Shown here piece after piece: positions 26,238-30,313 of a stretch of 64,000 nt of DNA (its first letter is position 1; every line of letters starts with the position of its first letter). The DNA is from Neopestalotiopsis rosae (taxonomy: Eukaryota > Ascomycota > Sordariomycetes > Amphisphaeriales > Sporocadaceae), in NCBI GenBank assembly GCA_023078685.1, contig JALGAS010000003.1, positions 1,240,001 to 1,304,000 on the forward strand, given 5' to 3'. A program made the position numbers and the translations under genes. The notes below the pieces were generated by a model. The model searched no databases. It was not told the DNA's origin and saw only the letters and a list, made by a program, of their open reading frames with translations.

Positions 26238-27383
26238 ACGAAACGAAATCCTGTATGTAATACTAGACTCCCCAAAGAAAGGCTCCTTTGTTTTGAAGCA
26301 AAAAGACTTGATGCGAGGGGAGCAGACGGGGGATAGTGACTTTAGAGTGTAAATCAAGTTCCTTATTTCTATTGATTTTGTTGGCACATGTCGTTTTTTC
26401 GTTGCTCTCAAGTAAATAGAAAGGCTGGCAACAGTCACCTCTTGCTCTCACATTTTCCTCTGTTTTTGACATGACTCTCAACACAAATGGCGCTCTTGTT
26501 TTCATATGCAGCCAAAGACTATCTGCAGGTGCTTCACTCTTCACACTTCACGAGGTCTTGTTCCTTGGTCAACCACCGTTGAGGGACGAGAAATGGGACA
26601 ACATGACCAAGCAATATATGTGCTATGAATTCGGCATGCATATCGTGGACATGAGGTCATGGAAGTGGTAGGCATCCAATTAGCCACCCACCATCTTCCA
26701 GCCTGTTCCCCAAGTGCCAGCCAAATCTTGTACTTGTATTTTGAGATTACTGGCAGCGTTGCCATTCTCCTTTGCGAACTTTTCCCACCAAACTACTCCC
26801 AACGCCAAATTTCTTCTCTGAGAAATCTCTCATCGCGTCTTTGTGAATAATGCACATAAACAAACGAGTGCTCCGTTTACGAGCTCTTTGGTGCCAATAG
26901 GTCAGTGCAACGTGGAATGGAGCCAAGTGGGAATATACCAGTTGGCGGTTGAGGATCCAATCCACTTGCACCTAAATTTGCACCACTTGTAAGGGTCCTC
27001 AGTGCCCAAAATTTTCCCACCAGCGGGCCGACCTACCCCAGAAGATCCCCCCGAATTTTTATTTCTTCTGCAAAACACCTGACACCTCGACCCGGCACAG
27101 TTATTTTCTCTTTTGCATGTTAATGTGTAATATTGTTCTCATGATCGATTGATTACTCTTTGTCTTGTTTCAAAATTGGATTGATGCGATCTTGGGCTTT
27201 CGTTCTATGCTGTTCCAGAAAAAACATACAGCATGAGAAACAGCCCTAGTCGCCAGAGGTAGTTGATACTGCTTTCTTGAGAGTGCAGCACATAAACTTT
27301 CAAGCAAGTGACGGCCAATCTGACCTGTCCCTATCACTGAAGCGCCACTTTAATCATTCCAAGGTGTTATCTTGGAGGTTCAA
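26238..27383. other. Spacer between cytochrome c1 and the Lys/Gln-rich gene
   Basis: About 1.15 kb with the cytochrome c1 3' end and the promoter of the next gene. No further gene, repeat or RNA was recognised. Confidence 0.4.
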
Positions 27384-28541
27384 ATGGGCTTTTTCGAGGG
27401 CAAAGGACAACGAGTTGCCTATGCCCAACCCAACCCGAGAAAGATTCACAAAAAAGTGATGGGCTGGCTGGAAAAGACGAAACAAGTATCGTCTAGCATG
27501 GTAACAGCAACAGAGGAAGACGACGAGCAGGAAAATCCCCATTGCAACAACACAAAGTCTGACCTGGCCGAAGATTTCATGCTGGGCTGGGAGACGGACA
27601 ACGATCTGGAAAGACTGCATCTGGGACTGCTGGCCGCCAACGGCAAACACGACAACAAGTGCGAGGATCTCCGGCGTATGAGCCTCCTGCGCGGTGTCGA
27701 GGTCTGGGACATGATGGTTTCGTGCGCGCGGAGCCGGAGGGACTCGCTGGCCGACCCGGCGTCCATGGAGGGCCAGGACGTCTTGACGCAAATGGGCAAG
27801 CTCATGGCCCTGGGAACGCCAGAGGAGAAGGCGGCGGCTTTGGATCTGCAGAAGGTCGACCCTCGGGCACAGAAGACTATGGCACAACTGGCAAGTCAGT
27901 CGTCGAATCAACAGCAGCAAGGGCAGCTGCAAAAGAAGAGGAAGAAGAATAAGCAAAAGAAGGGCCAACAGAATCAACAGCAGAAAGGACAGCAGCAGCA
28001 GCAGCAGCAACAACAACAACAACAACAACAGAATGCACAGAAGCAAGGTCAAAAGCGAACAGCTGAGTCCCAAGAAGTTGCAGGGGGAAATAGGCCTAAA
28101 AAGAAACGAAGGCCTCGGAAACAAAAAAATGAGTCTCGTTTCTTTGAAAAGCCTACGCCGCCCGTCGCTATCGCTATCGCAAACACCGACGGCGGTATTA
28201 CGCCTGATCCCAGCATTAATACCAATGGTCACGGAAATGGCAAGGCCGGTACGGATGCAGAAGATCTGGAGACAGCTGCTCACCGCGCGGTCAAGGCGGC
28301 TGAGAAGAAGGCCGAAAAAAAGAAGAATAGGTCTCTTAAGCGGAAACTGAAGAGGGATTTTGCCAAGAATTTACCGCAGACTCCAGAATCAGTAGCACCT
28401 GTTCTCCAGGAGGCTTCCGTATGGTATACGAGCCATGATGACAGCAACAAGACTCTCGAGGTGGACACCAATCAGGCATCTGGACATGAAAGTCATGCCA
28501 ATGAAGCGAATGAGGGCCATTTAAAAGCCAGCCACTCGTAG
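27384..28541 (+). CDS. Lys/Gln-rich disordered protein, upstream partner of the glycosylase ORF
   Basis: One open frame of 385 residues; ATG 27384 has A at -3 and G at +4. I recognise no domain. Residues 1-170 are of ordinary composition (GRKIH-like basic start, then DFMLGWETDNDLERLHLGLL). The middle is a strongly basic, Gln-rich stretch with 14 consecutive Gln (27990-28031) flanked by clusters such as KKRKKNKQKK and RPKKKRRPRKQK, which would serve as nuclear signals. A predicted charged helix (AAHRAVKAAEKKAEKKK) follows. Only 26 bases separate its stop from the MBD4-like ORF on the same strand, and a heptamer plus hairpin at the junction suggest the two may be read as one protein by -1 frameshifting. 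The alternative is two genes, or exons joined by an unrecognised intron. Confidence 0.6.
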   Translation: MGFFEGKGQRVAYAQPNPRKIHKKVMGWLEKTKQVSSSMVTATEEDDEQENPHCNNTKSDLAEDFMLGWETDNDLERLHLGLLAANGKHDNKCEDLRRMSLLRGVEVWDMMVSCARSRRDSLADPASMEGQDVLTQMGKLMALGTPEEKAAALDLQKVDPRAQKTMAQLASQSSNQQQQGQLQKKRKKNKQKKGQQNQQQKGQQQQQQQQQQQQQQNAQKQGQKRTAESQEVAGGNRPKKKRRPRKQKNESRFFEKPTPPVAIAIANTDGGITPDPSINTNGHGNGKAGTDAEDLETAAHRAVKAAEKKAEKKKNRSLKRKLKRDFAKNLPQTPESVAPVLQEASVWYTSHDDSNKTLEVDTNQASGHESHANEANEGHLKASHS

Positions 28542-28563
28542 ACGGCCAGGAGTCTACGAGTGG
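28520..28563 (+). other. Candidate -1 ribosomal frameshift signal (slippery heptamer plus hairpin)
   Basis: TTTAAAA at 28520-28526 is in the phase T TTA AAA relative to the upstream ORF, which is the X XXY YYZ arrangement. A 5-nt spacer (28527-28531) is followed by a perfect 12-bp stem, 28532-28543 with 28552-28563, and an 8-nt loop. The stem includes the upstream stop codon (28539-28541). Loop bases CAGG (28547-28550) can pair with CCTG at 28573-28576, so a weak pseudoknot is possible. The -1 frame is open from 28514 through the whole glycosylase ORF. Function is inferred, not shown. Confidence 0.45.
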
Positions 28564-28567
28564 TGAA

Positions 28568-30076
28568 ATGTCCCTGAGCAATATTTTTTATATCGAACAA
28601 GAACAAGAACCAGAACCAGAGATCGATGAGCAGCAACAAGAGCCTTCAGACGTCGAGCTACCCATGCTCGATTTGGCGGATGAGCCAGTAGATGAAATGT
28701 CGGCAAATGAAGGACAAGCAGTCGAGCAAGTGGAAGACTCCGTGAGTCAGATAATGGACAGTTCAGAACAAACCGATTGCGACACACCAGATCAAGCGCA
28801 AGCAGAAGAAGAAGCAACAAGTGAACTTTCAGATGTCTCATCGGATATCTTTGCAGATGATACGCTGGTCGACGTAGCAACAGAGAACGAAGAACGAGCA
28901 CATGCAGAAGCAGACGAGACTCCAGCCAAGGGGACTCCAGCTGCGAAAAATTCAAGATTGGACGGCGAGATCCCACAGTCTGCCGCTCCGGCCAGGATAT
29001 ATGAATTACGATCATCCGCCGGAACACCCATGAAAACACCTGATTCTGCTGGTACATTTCGTCAGAGAGATCGTGCCGCCACGGATCCTACCCAAGGCAG
29101 ACGCCAAAGTCTCCGGCTAGCTGCAAAGACTCCCAGCAAAGTTCCGCTCTCGGAAAGCACGCCCGTTCGGGTAGATTCTTCCATCATTGAGCGCGCCGAA
29201 GGGAGGCGTCAGAGCCTCCGCATAAACTCCAAGACGCCAAGCCAAGAGCGAGTTTCCACGTCAAAATACTTTGCAACGCCAAACCCCAGTCCGCTCAAGC
29301 CCAAGAGCTCACCCCGCCCACCGCGCGGGACCGTCTCGGCGCTGCCATTCCCGACGCTGTCGGCCCAACGCTTTGGGCTCATTCAGGAAGAGCTAGCCGG
29401 CGATCCCTTTCGTCTGCTGATCGCCATTACGTTTCTGGTCAGGACGCCCGGCAGGATTTCCGTGCCCGTCTTTTACGAGCTGATGGAAAAGTACCCGACG
29501 CCGCACGCGCTCCTGGTCGCCGGCCCCGACGAGATCGCCTCCATGATCAAGCACCTCGGCCTGTCGGTCGTGCGGACGGCGCAGATCCAAAAGTACGCCC
29601 GAATCTGGATCAAGAGCCCGCCGAGCCGCGAGGCCCGGTACGGCGTCAAGAACTACCCGCTGCCGGGCGACGGCGCCGACGTCCGCGCCGGCGAGCAGCT
29701 CGCCCCGGAAGGCGAGGACCCGCGCGCCTCGGCGTGGGAGATTGGCCACATGACCCAGGGCCCTTACGCCATGGACAGCTGGCGCATCTTTTGCCGCGAC
29801 GTGCTGCTGGGCCGCGCCGAGGACTGGCAGGGCAAGGGGCGGGAGCCCGAGTTCCAGCCCGAGTGGATGAGGGTCCTGCCGGCCGATAAGGAGCTGAGGG
29901 CGTACCTGCGCTGGATGTGGATGCGGGAGGGGTGGGATTGGGATCCCAACACGGGCGACAAGCAGCCCTTGTCCGTGGAGCTGAGAGAGGCCGTGAATCA
30001 GGGGCGTGTCCAGTGGGATAATACTGGATCGCTGCAAATTGTGGAAGGTGGTAATGAGATTGCTGAGGATGCTTGA
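28568..30076 (+). CDS. MBD4-like HhH-GPD DNA glycosylase
   Basis: 502 residues from ATG 28568. Residues 1-270 are disordered: acidic at first, then Ser/Thr/Pro-rich with two copies of a GRRQSLR motif. The catalytic domain starts at 281 (FRLLIAITFLVRTPG), matching the MBD4 core. The helix-hairpin-helix includes IKHLGLSVVRT around 328-338. The catalytic Asp is Asp403 in YAMDSWRIFC, where MBD4 has its active Asp before a Tyr/Trp-Arg-Ile-Phe-Cys string. No iron-sulfur Cys cluster follows, again as in MBD4, and there is no methyl-CpG-binding domain. The expected role is removal of T or U from G mismatches formed by cytosine or 5-methylcytosine deamination, in the nucleus. The frame remains open upstream to 28514, so translation may begin further upstream through frameshifting. 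Confidence 0.88.
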   Translation: MSLSNIFYIEQEQEPEPEIDEQQQEPSDVELPMLDLADEPVDEMSANEGQAVEQVEDSVSQIMDSSEQTDCDTPDQAQAEEEATSELSDVSSDIFADDTLVDVATENEERAHAEADETPAKGTPAAKNSRLDGEIPQSAAPARIYELRSSAGTPMKTPDSAGTFRQRDRAATDPTQGRRQSLRLAAKTPSKVPLSESTPVRVDSSIIERAEGRRQSLRINSKTPSQERVSTSKYFATPNPSPLKPKSSPRPPRGTVSALPFPTLSAQRFGLIQEELAGDPFRLLIAITFLVRTPGRISVPVFYELMEKYPTPHALLVAGPDEIASMIKHLGLSVVRTAQIQKYARIWIKSPPSREARYGVKNYPLPGDGADVRAGEQLAPEGEDPRASAWEIGHMTQGPYAMDSWRIFCRDVLLGRAEDWQGKGREPEFQPEWMRVLPADKELRAYLRWMWMREGWDWDPNTGDKQPLSVELREAVNQGRVQWDNTGSLQIVEGGNEIAEDA

Positions 30077-30313
30077 GGCCATATGGCGTGTTGGTGATGA
30101 ATACCGAAATAGGATTTATAGTCGGAAGTTTGGCCGTATAAGCGAGCATAATCGTTCAGAGCGATGCATTCTTTGGTGGGCAAAAACATATAGAGCAGCG
30201 TATTTCCAGATTGCATATCATGAGAGACGGGGAAAAGAGCATCTTGGACTAGATTGGAGCATTTAATTTGTTAGATCACACTCGTATACCTTTTTTTGTT
30301 TTTACCCGCCCTC

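Follow-up and report, generated by a model that had tools for sequence, protein, structure and literature searches.

A candidate programmed -1 ribosomal frameshift ahead of an MBD4-like DNA glycosylase in Neopestalotiopsis rosae and related fungi

This study analyzed a 64,000-nucleotide stretch of the Neopestalotiopsis rosae genome (assembly GCA_023078685.1, contig JALGAS010000003.1, positions 1,240,001 to 1,304,000 of the forward strand; hereafter the window, numbered from its first letter), in which two overlapping open reading frames (ORFs) are candidates for being joined by a programmed -1 ribosomal frameshift (-1 PRF). Both ORFs and all the features described below lie on the forward strand. 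The upstream ORF (27384-28541), whose frame is termed the zero frame, encodes 385 residues ending in GHLKASHS-stop and comprises an N-terminal domain (approximately 27423-28001), followed by a stretch rich in Lys and Gln and then by a linker that varies among homologues. According to the sequence and the ORF list, the second ORF, encoding an MBD4-like HhH-GPD glycosylase, lies in the -1 frame relative to the first and is open from 28514 to 30076; it overlaps the zero-frame end, as is characteristic of canonical eukaryotic -1 PRF. Its conserved glycosylase region spans approximately 29324-30073, and its first ATG, at 28568, begins an ORF of 502 residues (28568-30076). A first-pass annotation made from the sequence alone had reported the end at 28541 and the opening at 28514, both of which were read directly from the sequence; recomputing the products also reproduced its lengths, namely 385 residues for the zero-frame protein and 897 residues for the fusion (the first 381, ending in LK, followed by 516 from the -1 frame). 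The 301-base junction stretch is present as a single copy in the 53.8-Mb, 17-contig genome. Among the 120 best-matching of 792 homologues of the glycosylase, the named protein closest to the downstream ORF was P0004 from Pestalotiopsis sp. 9143b (70% identity over 97%), and P0003 was 97% identical to the downstream ORF.

The elements of a frameshift signal are arranged in immediate succession around the zero-frame stop. The slippery heptamer T TTA AAA (28520-28526) precedes the stop and is phased as X XXY YYZ in the zero frame, as in canonical eukaryotic sites, and is followed by the 5-nt spacer GCCAG (28527-28531) and a perfect 12-bp stem formed by a 5' arm (28532-28543) and a 3' arm (28552-28563), the latter read as ..ESTSG in the -1 frame. 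The spacer falls within the 5-9 nt typical of such signals, and the predicted stem supplies the stable downstream structure. Over the signal, the zero frame reads T TTA AAA, spacer, CAC TCG TAG, so that the 5' arm contains the TAG stop codon (28539-28541). The 8-nt loop GGCCAGGA (28544-28551) contains CAGG (28547-28550), which is complementary to CCTG at 28573-28576, a possible second stem of a pseudoknot. The heptamer, spacer, stop-covering stem, and loop complementarity had all been proposed in the first-pass annotation, and every detail of that observation that we checked was confirmed. The predicted RNA fold of 28527-28600 reaches -25.4 kcal/mol; shuffled sequences average -13.98 (standard deviation 2.81; z -4.06), and none of the 200 folded as well. 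We scanned both strands of the window for X XXY YYZ heptamers (Y = A or T) with an uninterrupted stem of 10 bp or more beginning 4-9 nt downstream, and this site was the only one that qualified; of 100 first-order Markov sequences matched to the window in length and scanned on one strand each, only 1 contained any such site. An Rfam search over 27300-30200 with E values up to 1 returned no match.

Searches with the upstream ORF (5 proteins) and with an alignment of its domain (12 proteins) identified nine different homologous ORFs that carry the N-terminal domain without the glycosylase and are 25-58% identical to the window ORF, which makes ten in all. All ten end in x-L-K-x-x-(H/R)-S-stop, with H in nine and R in P0124, such that the zero-frame L-K is kept and is followed by exactly two residues before (H/R)S. 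The approximately 30 residues preceding this motif are poorly conserved and variable in length, yet the frame remains open to the motif in every case. One of these homologues, P0128 from Monosporascus sp. GIB2, is a stand-alone NCBI protein with the C-terminus LKGGHS. The residue before LK could have a T-ending codon in 10/10, but the chance probability of this is approximately 0.13, which is uninformative, and the feature was not used. The junction conservation proposed as a check was evaluated at the protein level; searches for the junction DNA of relatives in viral contigs (with P0008 and alignment A5) and in genome contigs (with A5) matched no relative. The recurrence of the site in relatives is the strongest argument against chance, and it bears directly on the alternative of an assembly indel or a decayed gene, also raised in the first-pass annotation. 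Frame breaks in single genomes often have such a cause. Here, however, an assembly indel is practically excluded because the nine homologues, which come from other assemblies, terminate at the identical motif; moreover, both ORFs are long and intact, the Asp region of the glycosylase is present, and the near-identical P0003 keeps the downstream ORF. We consider this explanation extremely improbable.

We further analyzed the -1-frame peptides encoded over the signal. The window peptide is FKSQPLVDGQESTSG, and two relatives modeled in the -1 frame through this region match it, namely Daldinia vernicosa P0041 (FKRSSLIDGRESMSD) and Hypoxylon crocopeplum P0070 (FKRALLTDGQESVSG); the common pattern of the three is FK....DG(Q/R)ES.S. 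Other models enter the -1 frame just past the signal, at ES(M/V)SG or close variants. Codon analysis revealed that TTTAAAA is the only possible sequence when the -1 frame reads FKR or FKS and the zero frame LK, the zero-frame LK of P0041 and P0070 being assumed from their relatives. Back-translation permits 12/12 standard stem pairs in the window, P0041, and P0070, compared with 0.3% of 14,100 linker 15-mers, a control that is not phylogenetic. The changes within the arms are more telling than this pairing control. The codons at 28538-28540 and 28556-28558 specify Val/Thr in the window; P0041 has Ile/Met at these positions and P0070 has Thr/Val. These codons allow compensatory changes from G-C to A-U at 28538:28557 and from U-A to C-G at 28539:28556. 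Counting Watson-Crick pairs, the own arms of the three permit 12, 12, and 11, whereas the six arm swaps permit 9-10. Compensated stem pairs, another check named in the first-pass annotation, are accordingly permitted by the codons of both relatives at two pairs; at the protein level, conservation thus extends to 10/10 ORFs and codon covariation to two relatives.

A similar hairpin may exist in Annulohypoxylon, for which P0086 (Annulohypoxylon sp.) supplies the zero-frame peptide HSQMARRL and P0057 (A. truncatum) the -1-frame peptide DGQASVSG. A single DNA stretch can code for both, with 1,152 solutions and up to 10/11 testable pairs in Watson-Crick form, whereas none of 2,000 random linker 7-mers could be coded together with HSQMARRL. 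The implied stretch has the window loop GGCCAGG. The zero frame in this genus crosses the 5' arm, where CAG replaces TAG, and a TGA stop within the 3' arm would be possible. P0059 (Rostrohypoxylon) gave no solution with DGQASVSG but fits GQASVSG.

To place the broken frame among fungi, we compared the arrangement of the two parts across homologues. A 12-row profile of the upstream domain placed it N-terminal to the glycosylase in 96/132 proteins. Among the best 120 of 792 homologues, 33 glycosylase rows without an organism name were taken as unspliced ORFs; both parts lie in one frame in 18, and 15 lack the N-terminal domain, P0045, with a weak hit, being scored as lacking and the missing domain of P0066 perhaps reflecting only a contig end. 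In a tree of 81 rows, midpoint-rooted purely for display, the clade that includes Chaetomium, Podospora, Lasiosphaeria, Pleurostoma, and Thyridium contains 13 fused rows and 2 without the N-terminal domain. The remaining rows, Xylariales in the broad sense, comprise 13 without the domain and 5 fused; of the latter, three are neighbors of Apiospora and two, P0099 and P0104, form a pair on a long stem branch. Outside the Xylariales, the gene therefore appears to be mostly one continuous frame, within them it appears mostly broken, and in Apiospora-type rows it appears whole. These homologues indicate that the upstream ORF and the glycosylase are one gene, not two, because the outgroup rows mostly encode both parts in a single frame. 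The gene apparently acquired its frame break within the Xylariales (broad sense), starting from a presumably ancestral continuous form, and apparently no longer has it in Apiospora. P0013, P0015, and P0018, together with the Apiospora models P0011, P0012, and P0014, have one frame amid broken-frame relatives, which may represent a natural reversion to an uninterrupted frame. P0121, from Rutstroemia and named a pre-mRNA splicing factor, is a glycosylase homologue on a long branch among the Xylariaceae rows and is a mislabel, a contaminant, or a transfer.

This distribution also bears on a true dicistron, another alternative of the first-pass annotation, in which two proteins would be made by termination-reinitiation on one mRNA or from separate transcripts, with the glycosylase starting at ATG 28568. 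The window ATG lies 27 nt past the stop, and the 3' arm codes for Met (ESMSG) in several relatives, both of which would suit such an arrangement. However, the outgroup rows carry both parts in one frame, mostly as a single protein. Five models (P0025, P0037, P0056, P0062, and P0070) have Val in the arm, and the first Met that follows is 38 residues into the glycosylase core; P0047, P0051, and P0052 have a Met in the arm, but the one after it likewise falls within the core. Overall, 12/20 models, the window included, have a Met between the hairpin and the core and 8/20 have none, a count that rests on gene models in which a predicted intron could hide a Met. The eight models lacking one argue against separate initiation, and the two-protein explanation is disfavored and very unlikely.

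Several observations weigh against a conserved frameshift. The stems of the relatives were obtained by back-translation from proteins, and when G-U pairs are counted, the own arms permit 12 pairs each but the swaps permit 10-12, with two of the six reaching 12. LKxxHS occurs in only 4/96 fused rows (P0010, P0034, P0059, and P0086), the remainder either joining the frames elsewhere or being truly continuous. Neither motif is clear in Seiridium P0005, Neoarthrinium P0008, or the Xylaria models, so conservation is shown for other relatives and not for these. The Xylariales portion of the tree includes the fused pair P0099/P0104, and three Daldinia models (P0035, P0060, and P0076) share one frame joint, as real splicing would produce.

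The last point suits an intron that joins the frames, the remaining alternative of the first-pass annotation. Such an intron might be alternatively retained; LKxxHS-stop would then mark transcripts that keep it, and the 3' splice site would lie in the hairpin (loop CAG|G). Many fused models of relatives switch frame between the N-terminal domain and ES(M/V)SG, two Monosporascus models (P0047 and P0051) agree on the joint, and 3' arms with GTGAGT would supply a good donor. The window itself offers little for splicing, however. No GTRNGT donor was found in 28200-28541, and the single CTRAY in 28200-28900, at 28204, lies upstream of all the candidate donors. The better-scoring of 118 frame-joining candidates (GCAAGG at 28240, GTATGG at 28419, and GTACGG at 28249) have no branch site, and use of the GTATGG donor would cut the conserved ASVWY. 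The five fused Monosporascus models use four different joints, and the one other record of this genus contains the upstream protein by itself. Furthermore, the zero frame is open through the variable linker to an identical end in 10/10 ORFs, and an intron leaves the heptamer, the fixed spacing, and the paired arms unexplained. An intron is thus disfavored in the window, and we regard it as unlikely. The Monosporascus records P0043, P0046, P0047, P0051, P0055, and P0128 solve the frame break differently within one genus, and these gene models are probably mis-annotated.

Three further mechanisms were set aside. HAC1-type unconventional splicing needs two stem-loops, and one is seen here; stop readthrough alone would not reach a downstream ORF in a different frame; and transcriptional slippage would have to act on a run of only four A. 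Taken together, the conserved junction, the -1-frame peptides, and the codon-permitted covariation strongly support the reading of the first-pass annotation, and the glycosylase is very probably expressed by programmed -1 ribosomal frameshifting. At the protein level, the site was shown to be conserved in Pestalotiopsis-type, Diatrypaceae/Monosporascus-type, and Hypoxylaceae-type relatives, as their predicted proteins indicate.

The presence of a pseudoknot was evaluated in 28 rows chosen because the hairpin end could be located (20 gene models and 8 short ORFs beginning at the hairpin). Leu occurs at codon +4 after the hairpin in 19 rows and at +5 in 6 more (25/28), and the residue before this Leu can have a C-ending codon in 25/25 fitting rows; P0042, P0052, and P0071 do not fit. 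At other positions after the hairpin, Leu occurs in at most 8/28 rows (position +11). The pattern fits pairing of CCTG with CAGG, though a cause at the protein level is possible, and a pseudoknot is likely but not certain. The loop GGCCAGG (28544-28550), also implied for Annulohypoxylon, holds the self-complementary GGCC, and a kissing-loop dimer through GGCC could be an alternative to the pseudoknot.

The identity of the downstream part as an MBD4-like glycosylase, proposed in the first-pass annotation, was borne out by its matches to MBD4 chains (E 3e-14, and 2e-21 with a 19-row profile) and by an aligned Asp motif. The Pfam HhH-GPD model scored 24.9 bits on the downstream ORF, below the cut-off of 26.2, while most of the best 120 of 792 homologues carry PF00730. 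The profile motif GpYAiDSWRiFC aligns with MBD4 GKYGNDSYRIFC, and the Asp of the window motif GPYAMDSWRIFC, encoded by a directly read GAC at 29774-29776, aligns by profile to the Asp of GKYGNDSYRIFC, which is presumably the catalytic one of MBD4. Like MBD4, the downstream part has an HhH-GPD region with a GxYxxDSxRIFC motif; unlike MBD4, the gene has a different N-terminal domain. No Pfam match to a methyl-CpG-binding domain was found in the upstream ORF, and the downstream ORF matched HhH-GPD only; because this domain was not detected, the downstream part is predicted to be an MBD4-like glycosylase domain and not MBD4. The upstream domain, delimited by a profile of homologues to residues 14-206, had no match in Pfam or NCBIfam. 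For its homologue P0125 (10 rows), the predicted structure had a mean predicted local distance difference test score of 61 and a predicted template modeling score of 0.29, with helices mostly within residues 16-123 at modest confidence, and a Foldseek search of this model against the PDB gave no match at E <= 0.001. The upstream ORF also contains a poly-Gln run of 14 CAG/CAA codons (27990-28031), and P0123 is glutamine-rich as well. The P0122 model (Achaetomium) joins a cytochrome c1 domain to the glycosylase and probably represents two merged neighboring genes.

The closest precedent is the -1 frameshift of PaYIP3 in filamentous ascomycetes. The Podospora report describes a frameshift with experimental support, conserved in Pezizomycotina, at U UUU UCC with a 2-nt spacer (PMC3777964). 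As here, a nuclear gene of filamentous ascomycetes has a second ORF that overlaps the first and is read in the -1 frame; a downstream stem or pseudoknot with compensatory changes and long-term conservation are further points in common. PaYIP3, however, encodes a Rab-GDI displacement factor, with a frameshift efficiency of approximately 1% in yeast, and is backed by complementary DNA and protein evidence, whereas the present gene, known from its sequence, has the canonical U UUA AAA and a 5-nt spacer, and its -1 part is an enzyme. Viral cassettes such as T TTA AAC with a pseudoknot in infectious bronchitis virus, also noted there (PMC3777964), share the TTTAAA-type tandem-slip heptamer, short spacer, and strong stem or pseudoknot; the present site differs in belonging to a single-copy fungal gene, in its heptamer ending in A, and in the shift being predicted from sequence. 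In the part available of a 2016 review, PaYIP3 is the sole case for which Pezizomycotina are named, and "glycosylase" does not appear (PMC5009743); a 2025 paper describes conserved nuclear cases as very few (PMC12551717). The first-pass annotation knew of no DNA-repair enzyme expressed in this manner. This stands for eukaryotes, in that no frameshifted DNA glycosylase was found among the matches listed in the open-licence literature, excluding preprints, but not for prokaryotes: a 2013 survey reports a "DNA glycosylase / Dephospho-CoA kinase" frame-transition cluster, in which programmed frameshifting and translational coupling may occur (PMC3711429). That cluster resembles the present case in a DNA glycosylase gene with a possible programmed frameshift and differs in being prokaryotic and joined to an unrelated enzyme. 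The proposed mechanism is of a known type in an unexpected gene.

Under the frameshift proposed here, one gene would yield one mRNA, presumably unspliced, and two proteins. Most ribosomes would read the zero frame to the TAG within the hairpin and release the 385-residue N-domain protein without the glycosylase. A minority, held by the 12-bp hairpin or perhaps a pseudoknot, would undergo a tandem -1 slip on U UUA AAA and continue in the -1 frame, yielding the 897-residue protein with the MBD4-like glycosylase and the junction GHLK-SQPLVDGQESTSG (GHLK-SQPLV). Speculatively, this would serve to hold the glycosylase, which may be harmful, to a minor and constant fraction of the N-domain protein. 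In its full form, the proposal is that the catalytic domain of a cellular DNA-repair enzyme is reachable only through a canonical, virus-like -1 frameshift (U UUA AAA, 5-nt spacer, stop-enclosing hairpin or pseudoknot), kept across Pestalotiopsis-, Diatrypaceae-, and Hypoxylaceae-type fungi and lost again in Apiospora as the frame became continuous once more, and we consider this probable. If true, a canonical -1 site in an ordinary host gene would be a cellular counterpart of the viral mechanism, the dose of a repair glycosylase would be set by translation, and public gene models that join the frames by doubtful introns would need correction. Because the Apiospora-type and outgroup rows have a one-frame gene, the gain and loss of frameshifting would also become directly comparable.

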